This document shows, piece after piece, positions 52,255 through 63,475 of a stretch of 64,000 nucleotides of DNA. Location: positions 1 to 64,000 of the forward strand of contig JAPPII010000015.1 of the NCBI GenBank assembly GCA_028820845.1, in the 5' to 3' direction. The translations under genes and the position numbers were made by a program. Position 1 is the first letter of the stretch, and each line of letters starts with the position of its first letter. The notes beneath the pieces are model-generated. The model saw nothing but the letters and a program-made list of their open reading frames with translations, was not told the origin of the DNA and made no database searches. The stretch is from Candidatus Poribacteria bacterium. GTDB taxonomy: Bacteria > Poribacteria > WGA-4E > WGA-3G.

Positions 52255-53037
52255 ATGGAACACCTTATTACACTACCAACAAATTTTGCTGATTATTTGA
52301 CAATTGAAAATGCTAACCTCCGATTCACAGAAGCGACTGATGTTGCCGAGCGCGTCACCGGAGCAGGCGTAGAAATTCATCCGAACATGGATCATGCCGC
52401 GATTTTCTGTGATCCCCCCCACCTCGTTGCCGACGGTCTGAAACGACTCGGTTATGTCAATGGCTGGGATGCACGGTGTTATCCATCCCCCGTTGACGGT
52501 TACGATTACATTAACGTCTCGGCGCAATTACCCGCAGATAGCCCCGCACACAGCGAAGGGTGGTTCGACTACGTCGCCGTTGTGCATCCTGTTGACAAAC
52601 CAGCACTCCAACACATGCTTAGCCAAGGCTATGGGAACCCATTTATCCATCACTTGACATGGGGACTCGTGCCACCTGAGCGCACGACTGCTGATGACTT
52701 TGAATATGCTAATTGTGTTGTGCCGTTTATGGTGGCGAAACGTGAGGTCATCGGCGATGCAATCGGTGACGATCCCGGTACCCTGATTATCGCGTTACCA
52801 GAGGATGTCCTCTCGCATCCGAAATTTGAGGAATCTCTACCGTCATGGCTCGGAGACCTTGACGAAGAAGAATATCAGGTTGAATCGATGCAGGGAGGTG
52901 GTTTCCTGATCCAATTCTTTGTGTTGACAGGTGGCAGGATTGAGGTTGCTCTGCGCGTTGATACAACACAGACCTTCAACCCGAAAAGCGTTCACAAGAT
53001 TTCGGAAGATGAAATCAGTGCTGTGCAGGATGAATAG
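52255..53037 (+). CDS. Conserved-looking protein of unknown function
   Basis: 260 residues, soluble and acidic, with no signal peptide. Several histidines occur in strand-like contexts (GVEIHPNMDHAAIFCD, YVAVVHPVDKPAL, PFIHHLTWGLVPP), which could fit a VOC or cupin-type metal site, but I do not recognise a family. GGAGG lies at good spacing before ATG 52255. It stands alone between a divergent aldolase gene and a toxin-antitoxin cluster. Confidence 0.65.
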   Translation: MEHLITLPTNFADYLTIENANLRFTEATDVAERVTGAGVEIHPNMDHAAIFCDPPHLVADGLKRLGYVNGWDARCYPSPVDGYDYINVSAQLPADSPAHSEGWFDYVAVVHPVDKPALQHMLSQGYGNPFIHHLTWGLVPPERTTADDFEYANCVVPFMVAKREVIGDAIGDDPGTLIIALPEDVLSHPKFEESLPSWLGDLDEEEYQVESMQGGGFLIQFFVLTGGRIEVALRVDTTQTFNPKSVHKISEDEISAVQDE

Positions 53038-53207
53038 AGCACCATTCTATTTTTCATGAATTCTGATGTTAATAGTGGTATAATATTCATGGAAAGTCTA
53101 TGGAGGAACCGATAAAATTTATCTCATTCAAGGAATTAATCATGAATTGGGTTTGCCTACACCTGAATTAACAACCCCTTTGGATTATTTTGGAGGTACT
53201 GACTAAA

Positions 53208-53549
53208 ATGGGAAGCAAGAAGATTATGGAATGCAGTATAATGGAAGAAGTTCGCGAAATGCGGCGAAAAATCTCCGAAGAATTTGGACATGATCTTGGC
53301 CGATTGGTCGCGTATTATCAAGAACTGGAAACCGAAATGCGGAAATCAGGTAAATACAAGTTCGTGGACCCGCCGAGCGAAAAACCAGGATCCGAAGAAG
53401 TCGTTTTTGATTCCCTCGTTTCTGTTCAATTGGATTCTGAAGAATTTGAGGTTATCAAAACACTTGCCAAGTCGCGCGGAATATCTCCGGCCAATCTAAT
53501 TCGGGAGTGGGTTGTCCAACGTATTGATCAAACTCATGTCAGAAATTAG
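53208..53549 (+). CDS. Ribbon-helix-helix-like protein, antitoxin candidate
   Basis: About 113 residues. The N-terminal helices (IMEEVREMRRKISEEFGHDL, then GRLVAYYQELETEMRKSG) resemble a common small antitoxin-like module. The C-terminus (SVQLDSEEFEVIKTLAKSRG, then ISPANLIREWVVQRI) has the strand and two-helix pattern of CopG/RHH DNA-binding proteins. It lies 35 bases upstream of a DUF433-DUF5615 pair on the same strand and may belong to it or regulate it. ATG 53208 has GGAGG about 11 bases upstream; a TTG at 53190 is possible. Confidence 0.55.
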   Translation: MGSKKIMECSIMEEVREMRRKISEEFGHDLGRLVAYYQELETEMRKSGKYKFVDPPSEKPGSEEVVFDSLVSVQLDSEEFEVIKTLAKSRGISPANLIREWVVQRIDQTHVRN

Positions 53550-53584: not shown

Positions 53585-53821
53585 ATGGATACGAAATGGA
53601 TCCAATCGCATCCATCTATCATGATGGGAAAACCTGTTATTACTGGAACTCGTATCCCTGTTGAGTTGATTTTGGAGAAGTTCGCGGCAGGTGAAACGAT
53701 CGAGCAATTGCTTGAGGCGTATCCGCGCTTAACAGAGGAAGGTATCCGTGCAGCTTTTCGTTTTGCGGCGCAAGCCCTTCGCGCTGATGTCGTTTATCCT
53801 ATTTCAGAACAAACGCCATGA
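53585..53821 (+). CDS. DUF433 antitoxin of an intact pair
   Basis: 78 residues with AAAGGAGA before ATG 53585. WIQSHPSIMMGKPVITGTRI, then PVELILEKFAAGETIEQLLE and YPRLTEEGIRAAFRFAAQAL are textbook DUF433. It overlaps the toxin-like gene by four bases (ATGA), a typical toxin-antitoxin coupling. The paralogue at 9582-9821 shares the GKPxxxGTRxxVExIL and LTEExIRAxxxxAAxAL motifs. Confidence 0.88.
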   Translation: MDTKWIQSHPSIMMGKPVITGTRIPVELILEKFAAGETIEQLLEAYPRLTEEGIRAAFRFAAQALRADVVYPISEQTP

Positions 53822-54171
53822 ATCTCATTGTAGATGAAAACGTTGACAAACTTATTGTAGACACACTTCGACAGGATGGACATAACGTTTTATACGTTGC
53901 TGAGTTTGCACCAAGTATTGACGATGAAACTGTATTAGCACAAGCCAACCAAAATGAGGCGTTACTGATTACAGAAGATAAAGACTTCGGTGAGATTGTC
54001 TTCCGTCAGGGACGTATCCATGCAGGAGTCGTTCTCATTCGCCTTGATGGTTTATCCAAGCATGCAAAAGCGAGAAGCATTTCAACCATTTTTGCGAATC
54101 AAGGCACCCAATTGCTGGAGGCTTTCAGTGTTATCTCTCCTGGGCGGGTTAGGATTCGTCGATCACAGTAA
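53818..54171 (+). CDS. DUF5615 PIN-like toxin candidate
   Basis: 117 residues. The PIN-like core shows MNLIVDENVDKLIVDTLRQD, then GHNVLYVAE, DETVLAQANQNEALLITEDK and DFGEIVFRQG, giving conserved acidic residues D6, E7 and the TEDKDFG aspartates. DUF5615 proteins are predicted RNases partnered with DUF433. It appears intact, unlike the remnant at 9430-9579. Transcribed with the DUF433 gene. Confidence 0.85.
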   Translation: MNLIVDENVDKLIVDTLRQDGHNVLYVAEFAPSIDDETVLAQANQNEALLITEDKDFGEIVFRQGRIHAGVVLIRLDGLSKHAKARSISTIFANQGTQLLEAFSVISPGRVRIRRSQ

Positions 54172-54652: not shown

Positions 54653-54842
54653 ATCTCTGTCGTTTTATGAGCGTTGACAAAAAAGAGCCTCTCATGTCAA
54701 GAAACCCAAAAATCAGAGGCGTTCTCGCTTTTACGCTCGTGTTTACCCGCACAGTCGTTGGACTTCTGATTTCCAGACGAACGCCACCAGCGACGGTGAA
54801 AATCTACAAGACGACAACATCGGCACTCAAATGGAGGGTAGG

Positions 54843-57581
54843 ATGCTTTTTATGATTTTTCTCTGCTTTCTCATGGTCTGTGTTGTTTCCGAGAGTGAAG
54901 CCTATCAAGTGAAAGTTGTTTATTTTCAACCTGCCGACAGCGAAAATAGATCGGATCTGTTGGACTTTGACGAGCTGATGAAGTCTATTCAAGAGACATA
55001 CCGCTCTGAAATAGAACGTCATGGATTTGGCCCGAAAACGTTTAAATTGGAACTGGATCGAACAGGTAAAGTTGTTGTTCATCATATAAAGGGCCGACAC
55101 AATAAAGCGCGTTATGCAACGGAATCGGTGTTGGACCTCTTAATCCCTGAATTAGAGCGTAAGGGGTTCGAGGATAAGCAAACGATCTATGCTGTTGTGC
55201 TCGCGGGGGTGGAACTGATGCGCGGTGGGGCAACGGGTCTTGCAGTGCCAAGACCTTTTGCGGGATTTCACGGGAATGGGCATCCAGAGTATTCGGGGTA
55301 TGCGATGAGTGTTGAGTTGCGGAGAAACCGGGTAGAAAATATTTTGCGGCATGAATTAGGACATACTTTTGGATTGTCACATCTGCTTTTTGAACGAGGC
55401 GTGCGTTATACCCCTGGTGCTTACATAATGAATAATAGCGGCAACGGGGATGATCTTGTTGCGGCAGAGGCACGCTGGTTATCAAAACTCCGTCATTTCA
55501 ATGTGGGTGCAGGGTTTCGGAATAATTTTGCACCGCGACTCACGACATTTCGTGGCGCGAAACGTCTGGAAAATAACGACATCGAATTTCGCGCATCTGT
55601 GAGAGACCCTGATAACGATGGCGTTGCATCTGTCTATGCTGAAGTGGATTCGTGGGTTATTGGTTGGCAGTTTTTTGATGGAGATTCCCATATTGAAGAT
55701 GTTGTTTTTACAGATATTCCTGAAGATGTTTTAAGAGGCAAGCGTATTGGATATTACTTCATGGATGTTCACGGTAATTGGATGTATGATTTCCCAAATA
55801 AACCTTTTACACTTCCTCCTAAACACAAAGAGAGCGTATTGCACGATGAGAGTCAAAAGATAGATGCGGATGTCAACGCTGCCTCGGATTTGGTGGCATA
55901 CTACCCCTTTGACAGGAACTCAGAGGATGCCTCTGGAAATGGCAACCACGGTCAAATAATAGGTACAACAAACTATGTTGAAGGCAAATTTGGAGATGCA
56001 ATAGCACTCAATAACGGTGCCTATGTCAAAATGAATGCCTCCGACTCACTCCACGGCGACCTTTTCAAAGCGGACCCATTCACACTTGCTGTTTGGGTTT
56101 ATCCAAAAACTGGAACTAATTACGGATACGTTTGGCGGAGTTTACCGACGGGAGCCGCGGCGGGAGCCGGCACTAACACCTTATTCATTATTGAAGACGC
56201 AGGAATCATCTCTTGGCGTGGACGAATCGATGGGGTATGGTCATGGGGAGACCTCTGTGAGACCGAGCCCGGCCTCTTTGAAGTCGATACATGGTTACAC
56301 GTAGCCGTCACAAACGATGGTGATAAATTTAGGATCTATGTTGATGGAGAGAAGGTCACTGAGACAGATTTTCAAGAAACGGATGGCGGGAACACCGCTT
56401 ACCTCATTGGTAGTAGGTTCACCACTGATCACAACTTTTTCGGTTTAATAGACGATTACGCAGTCTTCTCCAAGGCATTGAACAAAGCTGAAATCAATTT
56501 GATAATGAAAACAAGCGTTGCAACGTTCTTACAAACGACACAATCCGCTAACGATACAGGAAACCGATCAGATATGGTGAGTCTTTTGCCTATGCGTGTG
56601 CCGTCTCCCAATATTGGTCAACGGCTCAAGTTGTCCCTAAAAATTGCTAACGGCGAAAATGTCGCAGGTTACCAAGCAACTGTGCAGTTCGACGACACGG
56701 CGCTCCGTTATGTCGAAAGTCTTAACAGTGATTATCTGCCTGATGGCGCATTCTTTGTCCCTCCGATTTTGGAAGGGAATCTTGTGAAACTCAACGCCGT
56801 ATCTCTGGCAGGCGAAAGCAACGGTGACGGCACCCTCGCTACGCTCACCTTTGAAGTCATCGCAGTGCAGGCATCTACTTTGACAGTATCTGATGTCCTT
56901 CTCACCAACAGCACAGGCGAAACATTCGCGCCTCAGATTGAAAACGCTGAAATAACCGAACCCACTAAACTCAAAGCAGATGTCAACAGTGATGGCACTG
57001 TTAACATTGCGGATTTGGTATTAGTTGCTTCAAACCTTGGCAAGACAGGACAGAATGCTGCAGATGTGAACGGTGATGGACAGGTCAATATTGCGGATCT
57101 CGTCTTGGTCGCTGGAGCATTGGGGACAAGTGCCTCCGCCCCTTCTCTACATCTGCAAGCTTTAGAAATGCTCACTGCTACAGAGGTCAAACAGTGGTTA
57201 TCCGCCGCGCAGCGATTGAATCTCACGGATATGCATTCACAACGCGGTATCCTATTTTTACAACAACTCCTCGTAGCGTTGATACCTAAAAAGACTGCCC
57301 TTTTGCCAAACTTTCCCAATCCGTTCAATCCTGAAACGTGGATACCCTATCAACTCTCAGTCCCCGCAGATGTTTCCGTAACGATCTATGCGGTGGACGG
57401 CACACGTGTTCGGAATTTAGCGTTAGGACACAAGCCTATGGGTATCTATCAAGACAAAAGGCGTGCGGCATATTGGGATGGTAAAAATGAAATTGGCGAA
57501 CACGTCAGTAGCGGAATTTACTTTTATACGCTTACCGCAAAAGATTTTTCCGCTACTCGCAAAATGCTGATCGTAAAATAG
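54843..57581 (+). CDS. Secreted metzincin-type metalloprotease with LamG, cohesin, dockerin and C-terminal sorting-like domain
   Basis: 912 residues from ATG 54843, with GGAGG just upstream. After a signal peptide (MLFMIFLCFLMVCVVSESEA) come: a zinc protease domain with HELGHTFGLSH at about residue 170; a LamG/concanavalin-like domain (from DLVAYYPFDRNSEDASGNGN, about 349-505); a cohesin-like domain (about 582-700, GYQATVQFDDTALRYVESL); two dockerin calcium loops (ADVNSDGTVNIADLVLV and ADVNGDGQVNIADLVLV, about 711-760); and a C-terminal beta domain starting FPNPFNPETWIPYQL (about 823) that resembles FlgD-like or T9SS-type tails. Probably exported and surface-attached. Confidence 0.9.
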   Translation: MLFMIFLCFLMVCVVSESEAYQVKVVYFQPADSENRSDLLDFDELMKSIQETYRSEIERHGFGPKTFKLELDRTGKVVVHHIKGRHNKARYATESVLDLLIPELERKGFEDKQTIYAVVLAGVELMRGGATGLAVPRPFAGFHGNGHPEYSGYAMSVELRRNRVENILRHELGHTFGLSHLLFERGVRYTPGAYIMNNSGNGDDLVAAEARWLSKLRHFNVGAGFRNNFAPRLTTFRGAKRLENNDIEFRASVRDPDNDGVASVYAEVDSWVIGWQFFDGDSHIEDVVFTDIPEDVLRGKRIGYYFMDVHGNWMYDFPNKPFTLPPKHKESVLHDESQKIDADVNAASDLVAYYPFDRNSEDASGNGNHGQIIGTTNYVEGKFGDAIALNNGAYVKMNASDSLHGDLFKADPFTLAVWVYPKTGTNYGYVWRSLPTGAAAGAGTNTLFIIEDAGIISWRGRIDGVWSWGDLCETEPGLFEVDTWLHVAVTNDGDKFRIYVDGEKVTETDFQETDGGNTAYLIGSRFTTDHNFFGLIDDYAVFSKALNKAEINLIMKTSVATFLQTTQSANDTGNRSDMVSLLPMRVPSPNIGQRLKLSLKIANGENVAGYQATVQFDDTALRYVESLNSDYLPDGAFFVPPILEGNLVKLNAVSLAGESNGDGTLATLTFEVIAVQASTLTVSDVLLTNSTGETFAPQIENAEITEPTKLKADVNSDGTVNIADLVLVASNLGKTGQNAADVNGDGQVNIADLVLVAGALGTSASAPSLHLQALEMLTATEVKQWLSAAQRLNLTDMHSQRGILFLQQLLVALIPKKTALLPNFPNPFNPETWIPYQLSVPADVSVTIYAVDGTRVRNLALGHKPMGIYQDKRRAAYWDGKNEIGEHVSSGIYFYTLTAKDFSATRKMLIVK

Positions 57582-58216: not shown

Positions 58217-58590
58217 TGTACTGCCACCGGAAATTTAGACCACTCTCTCATATAAGATCGTGCTACAATGATAATCTGTATTTGAAAGGAGCATTCCGAT
58301 GGTGAAACGAAGAAAACTCACGCCTAAGTTTAAAGCAGCAGTTGTGCTTGAGGCACTTCGCGGTGAAAGCTCCCAAGCGGAACTGTGTCGGCATCATAAC
58401 CTCAGCGAAACCCAAGTCTCAACGTGGAAACGCCAACTTCTTGAAAATGCTGAAACCTTCTTTGAATCGGAAGATAGGTTTCCGTCAAGGGAGTCAGCGG
58501 AGCGAATCGCTCAACTTGAGCAACTCGTTGGACGGTTGACGCTGGCACTGGAAATCCAAAAAAAAGCATTGACTTTCTTGGATTGACACC
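58217..58590 (+). mobile_element. Truncated IS3-family element
   Basis: The left end reads TGTACTGCCACCGGAAATTT, similar to IS3-group termini (TG start), followed by orfA at 58299. The orfB integrase frame and a matching right inverted repeat are not found downstream. The right boundary is unknown; 58590 marks the end of recognisable sequence. Confidence 0.6.
58299..58586 (+). CDS. IS3-family transposase OrfA
   Basis: 95 residues. The N-terminal HTH of IS3/IS911 OrfA is clear: KLTPKFKAAVVLEALRGESS, then QAELCRHHNLSETQVSTWKR. A leucine-zipper-like tail follows (AQLEQLVGRLTLALEIQKKA). The normal partner OrfB (DDE integrase), made by frameshifting, is absent, so the element is dead. Confidence 0.85.
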   Translation: MVKRRKLTPKFKAAVVLEALRGESSQAELCRHHNLSETQVSTWKRQLLENAETFFESEDRFPSRESAERIAQLEQLVGRLTLALEIQKKALTFLD

Positions 58591-58886: not shown

Positions 58887-59492
58887 ATGGCATACAGCAA
58901 TTTTACATTAGAATCAGTTCGGAAGACATTTCAACTGGAAACTGATGAAGCCGCAGATATTTCTTCAAAAATAGAGCCTGTGACACCCAGTGAGTACCTC
59001 ACCACCACCTTGGCACGCAACGTGCCCTTAGCACTTGCTATCGGCACAGAAAAGGCAAAGTCAGAAATGATCGTCACCAATGTACTACTCGAACTCCGCG
59101 AGCATTTCACGCAGCGGATTAGTCTCTTTTCAGGCATTGACTTCAGCGTTGATGCGGAAAAGGGTTTGACAGGGGTCTGTGATTTCTTGATAAGTCTTTC
59201 ACCTACGCAATTTCATTTAGAGGCCCCTATTATCGTCCTCGTTGAGGCAAAGAGAGACGAACCGACGACTGGTTTCGGTCAATGTGTTGCAGAGATGCTT
59301 GCAGCGCAACATTTCAATGCTGAAAGAGGAAATGACCTTCCCTGTATTTATGGAACTGCCACTACGGGCACAATGTGGCACTTTCTCAAATTGGAAGCAC
59401 AGCAGCTCCAGATTGATAGCGCAGTCTATTCCATTGGACAGTGTGATAAGATTCTCGGGATCCTCGCAAGTATGGTAGAGCAGAACGCGTAA
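58887..59492 (+). CDS. PD-(D/E)XK-like paralogue 1 of 4
   Basis: 201 residues, first of four tandem paralogues. The shared core reads TEKAKSEMIV (helix with Glu, about 54-63), FSGIDFSVD, GLTGVCDFLIS (Asp99), PIIVLVEAKRDE (Glu120 and Lys122), GFGQCVAEMLAAQHFN, GTMWHFLKLE and CDKILGILASMVEQNA. The D-x20-E-x-K spacing fits the PD-(D/E)XK nuclease fold. Similar stand-alone proteins are, as I recall, numerous in cyanobacteria and uncharacterised. There is no signal peptide. AAAGGAGG precedes the ATG. Nuclease activity is inference. Confidence 0.75.
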   Translation: MAYSNFTLESVRKTFQLETDEAADISSKIEPVTPSEYLTTTLARNVPLALAIGTEKAKSEMIVTNVLLELREHFTQRISLFSGIDFSVDAEKGLTGVCDFLISLSPTQFHLEAPIIVLVEAKRDEPTTGFGQCVAEMLAAQHFNAERGNDLPCIYGTATTGTMWHFLKLEAQQLQIDSAVYSIGQCDKILGILASMVEQNA

Positions 59493-59512
59493 GAAGTATG
59501 GAGGTTTTAGAA

Positions 59513-60118
59513 ATGGCGTATAGCAATTGGACCTTAGAAGAAGTGCTAACAACGTTTCAATTGGAAGCGACTGAATCTATAGACATCTTTGCAAACATAG
59601 AACCCATAGAACCCAGTGCCGAACTCATGGTAGAGTTAAAAAAAAAGGTACCGGTAGCCGCAGCTGTAAATACAGAGAAAGCACGGTCAGAACTGATTGT
59701 CGCCAATATTCTCATTGAACTCCGTGAGAAATTCGAGCGTCGCATCAGCCTCTTTTCTGGCATCGATTTTAATGTTGATGCTGAAAATGGATTGACGGGG
59801 GTCTGCGACTTCTTAATCAGTTTATCGCCGATGCAATCTTTTTTACGGGCACCCGTTATTGTCCTTGTTGAGGCAAAGAAAGAAGACCCAGCACCTGGGT
59901 TAGGGCAGTGTGTTGCTGAGATGATCGCAGCACAACGTTTTAACGCTGAGAAAGGGAATGACCTTTCCCATGTTTATGGTGCCGCCACAACAGGGACAGA
60001 GTGGAAATTTCTCAAATTAAAAGGCAACCGTCTGTCTATTGATATAACAGTCTACCAAATCGCGCAGTGCGACAAAATCCTCGGTATCCTCGCAAGTATG
60101 GTAGAGCAGAACGCGTAA
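59513..60118 (+). CDS. PD-(D/E)XK-like paralogue 2 of 4
   Basis: 201 residues from ATG 59513 (GGAGG upstream; the frame opens at 59498). It follows paralogue 1 after 20 bases. The catalytic-type residues are kept (GVCDFLIS, IVLVEAKKED), as is the C-terminal CDKILGILASMVEQNA, which is identical to paralogue 1 at the protein level. It differs most in residues 15-45 (ATESIDIFANIEPIEPSAEL) and in the QSFLRAP strand entrance. Confidence 0.75.
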   Translation: MAYSNWTLEEVLTTFQLEATESIDIFANIEPIEPSAELMVELKKKVPVAAAVNTEKARSELIVANILIELREKFERRISLFSGIDFNVDAENGLTGVCDFLISLSPMQSFLRAPVIVLVEAKKEDPAPGLGQCVAEMIAAQRFNAEKGNDLSHVYGAATTGTEWKFLKLKGNRLSIDITVYQIAQCDKILGILASMVEQNA

Positions 60119-60140
60119 GAAAGTGTGGAGGTTCTAACAA

Positions 60141-60746
60141 ATGGCTTACAGCAATTTTACATTAGAGACAGTGCGAAAAGAATTTCAGTTAGAAACAACT
60201 CAGGCCATAGGTATCTTTTCCAAGATAGAACCAATAAGTCCGAGTGAACTTCTCACAACAGTCTTGGCAAAAAAGGTACCAGTAGCCGCCGCAATAGGCA
60301 CAGAAAAAGCACGATCAGAACTGATTGTCGCCGATGTCTTGTTTGAACTCCTTGAGCGTTTTAGGGAACATATCAGTCTCTTTTCCGGTATTGAATTCAA
60401 TGTTGATACCGAAGCAGGGTTGACCGGTGTATGTGATTTCCTAATCAGTAGATCGCCAGACCAGCTGTCTTTAGAGGCACCTGTCATTATCCTTGTTGAA
60501 GCAAAGAAGGAAGACTTGACAGCAGGCCTCGGGCAGTGCATTGCTGAAATGATCGCCGCACAACGCTTTAATGCTGAAAAAGGAAATGATATACCTTGTG
60601 TTTATGGCGCCACCACTTCGGGAACAGATTGGCGATTTCTCAAATTGGAAGGACAGAAACTGCACATTGATATAACAGTCTACCAAATCGCGCAGTGCGA
60701 CAAAATCCTCGGCATCCTCGCAAGTATGGTGGAACAAAAAGCGTAA
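60141..60746 (+). CDS. PD-(D/E)XK-like paralogue 3 of 4
   Basis: 201 residues, 22 bases after paralogue 2, with GGAGG upstream. It keeps GVCDFLIS, IILVEAKKEDL, GLGQCIAEMIAAQRFNAEKGN and DITVYQIAQCDKIL, the last shared exactly with paralogue 2. This suggests a later duplication or gene conversion between 2 and 3. The N-terminal variable block is TTQAIGIFSKIEPISPSELL. Confidence 0.75.
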   Translation: MAYSNFTLETVRKEFQLETTQAIGIFSKIEPISPSELLTTVLAKKVPVAAAIGTEKARSELIVADVLFELLERFREHISLFSGIEFNVDTEAGLTGVCDFLISRSPDQLSLEAPVIILVEAKKEDLTAGLGQCIAEMIAAQRFNAEKGNDIPCVYGATTSGTDWRFLKLEGQKLHIDITVYQIAQCDKILGILASMVEQKA

Positions 60747-60767
60747 CGAAGGATAGGAAGTGTCTCA

Positions 60768-61376
60768 ATGGCATATAGCAACTTTACCTTAAGCGAAGTA
60801 AAGAAGGCGTTTCAGATAGTAGAAACAGTTGAATCGGTAAACCTCTTTGCCCACGTAGAGCCAAAAACGCCAAGTTCGGTACTCACAGCCGTATTGGAAC
60901 GAAATATGCAGGTAGCTCTCGCCGTCAACACGGAAAAGGCGAAATCCGAACTGATTATCGCTAATGTACTCATAGAACTTCGCGAGCAATTTGATAGACA
61001 GATCGGCGTTTTTTCCGGGATTGACTTTAACGTTGATGCCGAAAACGGATTGACAGGGGTCTGCGATTTTTTAATAAGTTTGTCTCCGGCACGGTTCGTT
61101 TTAGAGACACCTATCATCATTCTTGTTGAGGCAAAGAAGGATGACCTGACAGTAGGACTCGGTCAGTGCGTTGCCGAGATGATCGCCGCACAACGCTTTA
61201 ACAAGGAAAATGGAAATGATATACCTTGCATCTACGGGGCGACCACTTCTGGAACAGAATGGCTCTTTCTCAAATTGGAAAGGCAAACTCTTTATATTGA
61301 TACCGAATTCTACTCAATTCACGAGTGCGACAAAATCCTCGGCATCCTCGCAAGTATGGTAGAGCAGAAGGCATAG
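60768..61376 (+). CDS. PD-(D/E)XK-like paralogue 4 of 4
   Basis: 202 residues, 21 bases after paralogue 3, with AGGAAG as a weaker Shine-Dalgarno. The core is kept (FSGIDFNVDAENGLTGVCDF, IIILVEAKKDDL). The variable block is VETVESVNLFAHVEPKTPSS and the tail is DTEFYSIHECDKILGILASM. Last of the array; about 40 bases separate it from the pyr promoter. Confidence 0.75.
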   Translation: MAYSNFTLSEVKKAFQIVETVESVNLFAHVEPKTPSSVLTAVLERNMQVALAVNTEKAKSELIIANVLIELREQFDRQIGVFSGIDFNVDAENGLTGVCDFLISLSPARFVLETPIIILVEAKKDDLTVGLGQCVAEMIAAQRFNKENGNDIPCIYGATTSGTEWLFLKLERQTLYIDTEFYSIHECDKILGILASMVEQKA

Positions 61377-61417
61377 TATTTCTGGGATAGTATAATCTGA
61401 CAAGCATACAAAAAATT

Positions 61418-61446
61418 TTGCAATTAAAATATAAATATGGTATAAT
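61418..61446 (+). promoter_or_regulatory. Promoter of the pyrimidine operon
   Basis: TTGCAA (61418-61423), a 17-bp spacer and a perfect TATAAT (61441-61446), just upstream of the PyrR-type leader. Transcription would start near 61453, placing the whole attenuator in the mRNA. Confidence 0.75.

Positions 61447-61622: not shown

Positions 61623-63475
<1,853 letters not shown>

Follow-up and report, generated by a model that had tools for sequence, protein, structure and literature searches.

Four genes that stand head to tail upstream of pyrR in the genome of a poribacterial sponge symbiont encode small, solitary proteins with a predicted nuclease fold. The array is genuine, and is a local instance of an expansion that runs through the lineage. 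It comprises four ancient paralogue types, and nuclease genes of this family move between species independently of the genes beside them. Both the fold and these population dynamics are supported by the comparisons described below. The most likely function, at a little under an even chance, is to serve as a pool of solitary, restriction-like nucleases, with incoming DNA as the presumed target.

The array lies in a window of 64,000 nucleotides, the whole stretch of DNA that was analysed. Its four members, all on the plus strand, are: member 1 (type D; 58887..59492; 201 aa); member 2 (type C; 59513..60118; 201 aa); member 3 (type B; 60141..60746; 201 aa); and member 4 (type A; 60768..61376; 202 aa). 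They are the head-to-tail paralogues that the original prediction described, separated by spacers of 20, 22, and 21 bp. A GGAGG-like ribosome-binding site precedes the array genes, with a weaker AGGAAG for gene 4. Homology places the start of gene 2 at 59513; the ORF caller reaches back to 59498. The proteins are 67-74% identical to member 1 or member 3, well above chance. The catalytic core and C-terminus reported as invariant are indeed kept in all four: D99, E120-x-K122, and CDKILGILASMVEQ (with gene 4 numbering shifted by +1). The greatest divergence falls at residues ~15-50, in agreement with the variable block first placed at about 15-45. MAG SB0670_bin_34 contains the same array, and the third protein there is 100% identical. 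The IS3 fragment noted ahead of the array was likewise confirmed, as an IS3-type OrfA remnant (58299..58586, plus strand; 95 codons; HTH_Tnp_1 at 2.9e-11) beside which no intact OrfB partner was seen. Among the pyrR-upstream loci compared it is confined to the window species, and it stands outside the nuclease family.

The site is framed by two anchors in synteny comparison: on the left, a conserved 260-aa protein without a Pfam family (52255..53037, plus strand); on the right, pyrR (61647..62195, plus strand). Between the array and pyrR stand a sigma-70-like promoter of the pyr operon (TTGCAA-17-TATAAT; 61417..61446, plus strand; consensus match only) and the PyrR-binding attenuator leader RNA (RF00515; 61475..61602, plus strand; 58.6 bits, gathering score 54) that marks the right-hand array boundary. 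Because these two elements intervene, the array is probably a transcription unit separate from the pyr operon. The promoter-like block is also visible upstream of pyrR in other species. (The attenuator leader with its terminator, preceded by the promoter-like site, stands before pyrR-pyrC-carA, and the arrangement is conserved genus-wide.) A link to pyrimidine synthesis was rejected: the pyr operon is equipped with a promoter-like site and leader of its own, and other copies of the family lie elsewhere.

Comparison of the gap between the 260-aa gene and pyrR across genomes of the genus found the family at 27 of 34 readable loci (intact, frameshifted, or truncated; up to five copies) and none at the other seven. 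Related genomes display empty, single-copy, multi-copy, and broken states, and copies also occupy this site in several poribacterial genomes of greater divergence. One genome (G004; L185, ~-513 to -291 upstream of pyrR) contains a chimeric ORF that opens with the pyrR N-terminus and closes with the 3' end of a nuclease-family gene, a mark that local recombination has left in the array. Other occupants of the gap in the window are: a ribbon-helix-helix gene (53190-53549) and a DUF5615 (PIN-like) gene (53818-54171), a possible toxin-antitoxin pair of which copies or fragments recur in the gap of other species; and a gene (54831-57581) for a 916-aa secreted-type protein with a HEXXH-type metalloprotease motif and LamG, cohesin, and dockerin domains.

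The pyrR site is one of several. The family is present in 64 of 85 poribacterial genomes, two of which carry at least 40 copies. Copy number differs between related species, the extremes being 0 and at least 40; in G022 and G029, which belong to the same genus, the family is absent or represented by one distant copy only. Similar arrays occur in related genomes, and the window genome itself has a repertoire of 14-15 copies, of which the four array genes make up only a small share. Three of these copies come from a distant subfamily (~30% identity). Members of that subfamily (L029, L030, L031, L104:2127-2738) have an MAFSDFK start and a different C-terminus, and match the PADLOC profile PDLC01472. 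The 90 runs of family genes in poribacterial loci comprise 57 single genes and 33 arrays of 2-6. Recurrent intergenic sites are: after dnaK, with malate dehydrogenase beyond; the gap between glutamate dehydrogenase (gdh) and pdxJ; after a nuoN-like gene; after trpA; and upstream of pyrR. Family genes share the direction of the upstream gene in 70 of 74 cases (95%), against 279 of 323 (86%) for other genes, a difference too weak to serve as an argument and therefore set aside. A viral origin was rejected: at the sensitivity of the searches, neither 50,697 phage records nor 2.9 million viral contigs contained a match to the family.

Phylogenetic analysis places the four window genes in four separate clades, each together with pyrR-site genes of other species. 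Orthologues of member 1 (type D) occur in the pyrR arrays of, for example, G003, G005, G019, and G032; those of member 2 (type C) in G032, G033, G034, and G084; that of member 3 (type B) in G033; and those of member 4 (type A) in G001, G005, and G021. At least eight types are found at the pyrR site. Their subsets differ by species and their order is only partly conserved: D-C-B-A in the window; D-E-A-I-H in G005; C-B-H in G033; and H-C in G034. Recent tandem duplication was rejected, because the four clades are common to other species and synonymous sites are near saturation.

Evidence for exchange comes from synonymous divergence. Rank correlations between the family and five flanking genes are 0.12-0.29, whereas those of the flanks with one another are 0.47-0.78. 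In 10 of 69 pairs, synonymous divergence is less than half as great in the family gene as in any of the flanks, compared with 0 of 69 for each flank gene; these pairs are not independent, and p-values are indicative. Codon bias can shift synonymous divergence, but the range of 0.05 to 1.5 within the family speaks against that explanation. Similar exchange is seen at the dnaK site, where the list comprises only family pairs below 0.5: L037 and L118 differ by 0.10 in the family gene, 0.56 in dnaK, and 0.50 in mdh.

The similar tract ends at or inside the gene in the pairs inspected, also where the neighbours are unrelated (G033 versus G084). Moreover, in four of six exchanged pairs codons 181-201 are at 0.57-0.86, versus 0.09-0.22 for codons 20-180 (pooled Fisher p 6e-11 for exchanged pairs and 0.06 for control pairs). 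This elevated divergence fits recombination breakpoints in the similar 3' end. Exchange apparently proceeds by homologous recombination between family genes, with breakpoints often in the conserved 3' coding end. Gene conversion also acts at the 3' end of array genes, because DNA identity there is raised within the array (88%, versus 77% with other sites). Conversion alone was rejected as the cause of the invariant C-terminus: synonymous change is high and amino-acid change almost nil (in the C-terminal block the four window genes have a dN/dS of 0.02). The literature searched, the coverage of which was incomplete, yielded no description of the scale of the expansion, of the syntenic array with its species-specific assortment of old types, or of the exchange of single genes with breakpoints inside them.

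The family is under purifying selection: dN/dS is 0.07-0.13 for comparisons within a type, and 0.15 when the four window genes are set against one another. In the N-terminal block, residues 15-50, selection is relaxed (0.14-0.29); positive selection is unsupported at block level. Diversified recognition, which the original prediction drew from this block, is possible but likewise unsupported, as amino-acid change shows no excess.

The predicted PD-(D/E)XK fold was borne out by an AlphaFold2 model of member 3 (56 sequences; pLDDT 92.9; pTM 0.90). Its secondary-structure order is that of the alpha-beta-beta-beta-alpha-beta core: alpha 55-73; beta 79-89; beta 94-103, with D99; beta 114-120, ending at E120; K122; alpha 130-147, starting at Q132; and beta 154-159. 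D99, E120, and K122 occupy the expected places within this order. Foldseek matches, all weak, include the putative restriction endonuclease 9y1l (E 7.5e-4), MGME1, NucC, and a lipothrixvirus nuclease. (Mitoribosome chains were the best PDB fold matches, and were discarded for very poor superposition, with rmsd of 8-10 A.) A sequence search of solved structures returned nothing meaningful for the family.

The catalytic core extends well beyond the window. Among 173 distinct poribacterial copies, D99 is conserved in 172, E120 in 170, K122 in 172, and Q132 in 165; E60 (173/173), K56, Q141, N144, Y155, W164, and G191 are fully invariant. Residues E120, A121, K122, and Q132 are also invariant in a 12-sequence set that includes cyanobacterial and HSDR_N members. 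The near invariance of the catalytic positions indicates that the family is very probably an active enzyme.

What such an enzyme might do is suggested by its relatives and its dynamics. The array is best explained as a single location within an old and extensive repertoire of solitary HsdR-N-like PD-(D/E)XK nucleases that has been reshuffled horizontally. The product of each gene would be a metal-dependent nuclease, probably a homo-oligomer, and would attack DNA that is incoming or aberrant in some other way; the types may differ in the targets cut or in their control. Differing subsets of types could be useful against the changing phages and free DNA encountered in a filter-feeding host. Presumably, the similar coding ends (MAYSNFTLE... 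and CDKILGILASMVEQ) serve as homology arms for recombination between the array and incoming copies. This reading as restriction-like nucleases accords with several observations: the family is related to HsdR-N nucleases; its turnover is high, yet its active site stays intact; its genes pass between species; and it is expanded in sponge symbionts. Restriction-modification and toxin-antitoxin genes are reported as enriched in the genomes of such symbionts, as is the solitary restriction endonuclease COG2810 (PMC5649159). An operon on a Planktothrix plasmid (L131), in which helicase, DUF1156, DUF499, HSDR_N, and Uma2 genes accompany a family member, points the same way; it also contains a VapC gene.

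A defence role, as originally proposed, is plausible, but the neighbourhood supports it inconsistently. Sites adjoin housekeeping genes (dnaK, pyrR, gdh/pdxJ, nuoN, and trpA), which are the recurrent neighbours, and PADLOC matches among 58 neighbour groups are isolated. Defence-island context was rejected on the sporadic matches among the representatives of those groups, and its absence from most places counts against a restriction-like pool. So does the missing partner: no cognate methyltransferase stands beside the window array, and such an enzyme is not associated with the family, which leaves self-protection unexplained under this reading. (Two poribacterial genomes, L116:17-2890 and L091, have a family array immediately preceded by the gene for a 957-aa Eco57I-like methylase.) Nor was a recurrent toxin-antitoxin partner found among immediate neighbours of at least 70 aa. 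A more specific proposal is doubtful: that Poribacteria maintain, at fixed places in the chromosome, a pool of solitary restriction-like nuclease types that is combinatorial, in species-specific subsets, with types swapped gene by gene through coding-end homology, and thus share an innate-immunity repertoire without a modification partner.

The main rival holds that these are free-standing, homing-like selfish nucleases. Each would cut chromosomes that lack the gene at a conserved intergenic place, whereupon repair copies the gene in, and it spreads without benefit to the host. The spread of the genes independently of their flanks, their position in gaps beside conserved genes, and the coexistence of empty, filled, and decaying sites are all what such elements would produce. 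However, tandem arrays of 2-6 different types are unexpected if insertion destroys the target, breakpoints often fall within the gene and the flanks show no co-conversion, and strong purifying selection extends across the whole family; a homing-like role is judged unlikely. That same purifying selection would suit a housekeeping enzyme that repairs or processes host DNA or RNA, multicopy for dosage and co-expressed with the preceding genes. So would stable chromosomal sites by housekeeping genes, mostly in the direction of the upstream gene, and the absence of the family from the viral collections. Yet copy number swings from none to at least 40 between related species, G022 and G029 manage with none or a distant copy, and decay and exchange are frequent, all of which make a housekeeping role distinctly improbable.

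Two further readings concern the scaffold and its label. Catalysis has been lost in some PD-(D/E)XK folds, so these proteins might use a nuclease scaffold to bind DNA or to regulate, without catalysis. After such a loss, the catalytic positions would not be expected to stay almost unchanged across 173 copies, nor to be largely retained by cyanobacterial relatives, and this reading is highly improbable. An accessory nuclease of CRISPR systems is what the PADLOC classification (CAS-I to CAS-VI associated) would imply, and one cyanobacterial plasmid member does lie near cas3 and cas6. No cas genes stand beside the window array, however, and the recurrent poribacterial neighbours are metabolic: the immediate neighbours are pyr genes, dnaK, gdh, and the like. 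A CRISPR function thus merits scarcely any credence; a likelier source of the label is the chance surroundings in which copies of a dispersed, multicopy family come to lie.

The restriction-like pool remains the preferred reading. A 200-aa gene with a nuclease fold that reaches at least 40 copies per genome, intact and exchanged, must either be useful or spread very well. The same question applies to Uma2 and COG2810 (PMC5649159). The empty, single, multiple, and broken states of the pyrR site make the choice between homing and defence directly testable.

Both the fold and the family are already known. The original prediction called these stand-alone proteins uncharacterised. A functional description was indeed not found in the literature searched, but a profile exists: PDLC01472 ('PD_DExK') matches all four proteins over residues 54-199 (E 1e-48 to 1e-51), and fits cyanobacterial plasmid proteins, at 51-53% identity, equally well. 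The label attached to this profile is CRISPR-associated, whereas the window array has no CRISPR neighbourhood, and its family is massively multicopy, forms tandem arrays, and is exchanged between species. Pfam, NCBIfam, and PHROG yielded no family match for the array proteins.

In sequence, the family comes nearest to solitary nucleases of the HsdR-N type. Among annotated relatives, the closest one found is a solitary HSDR_N protein (PF04313, 1.9e-6), whose gene stands two genes upstream of the family member in the Planktothrix plasmid operon. Profile comparison aligns the two (hhalign E 5e-6) over the G-x2-D...EAK...Q core. The family has this core in common with HSDR_N, the nuclease domain of Type I restriction HsdR, along with a Y/F-G-x2-T-x-G-x-W/F-x-F-x-K-like motif. 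The window proteins differ from HsdR in being single domains of 201 aa, without a helicase motor, HsdM, or HsdS; hsd genes are not adjacent, and the PF04313 model itself does not match the window proteins. Uma2 (DUF820; PF05685; PADLOC PDC-S03) resembles the family in habit: it is also ~200 aa, solitary, and described as a putative restriction endonuclease. It occurs at 29 places in the window genome, a second multicopy family of solitary nuclease-like proteins, and adjoins a family member in Planktothrix, where HSDR_N-like, Uma2, and family genes lie in a row (L131:4778-6603). Similarity between Uma2 and the family is nevertheless undetectable by sequence or profile (hhalign probability 0.1). 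Finally, NucC, MGME1, and the lipothrixvirus nuclease are PD-(D/E)XK nucleases matched by fold, at low TM-scores (0.24-0.46), and they differ from the family in both domain additions and context.
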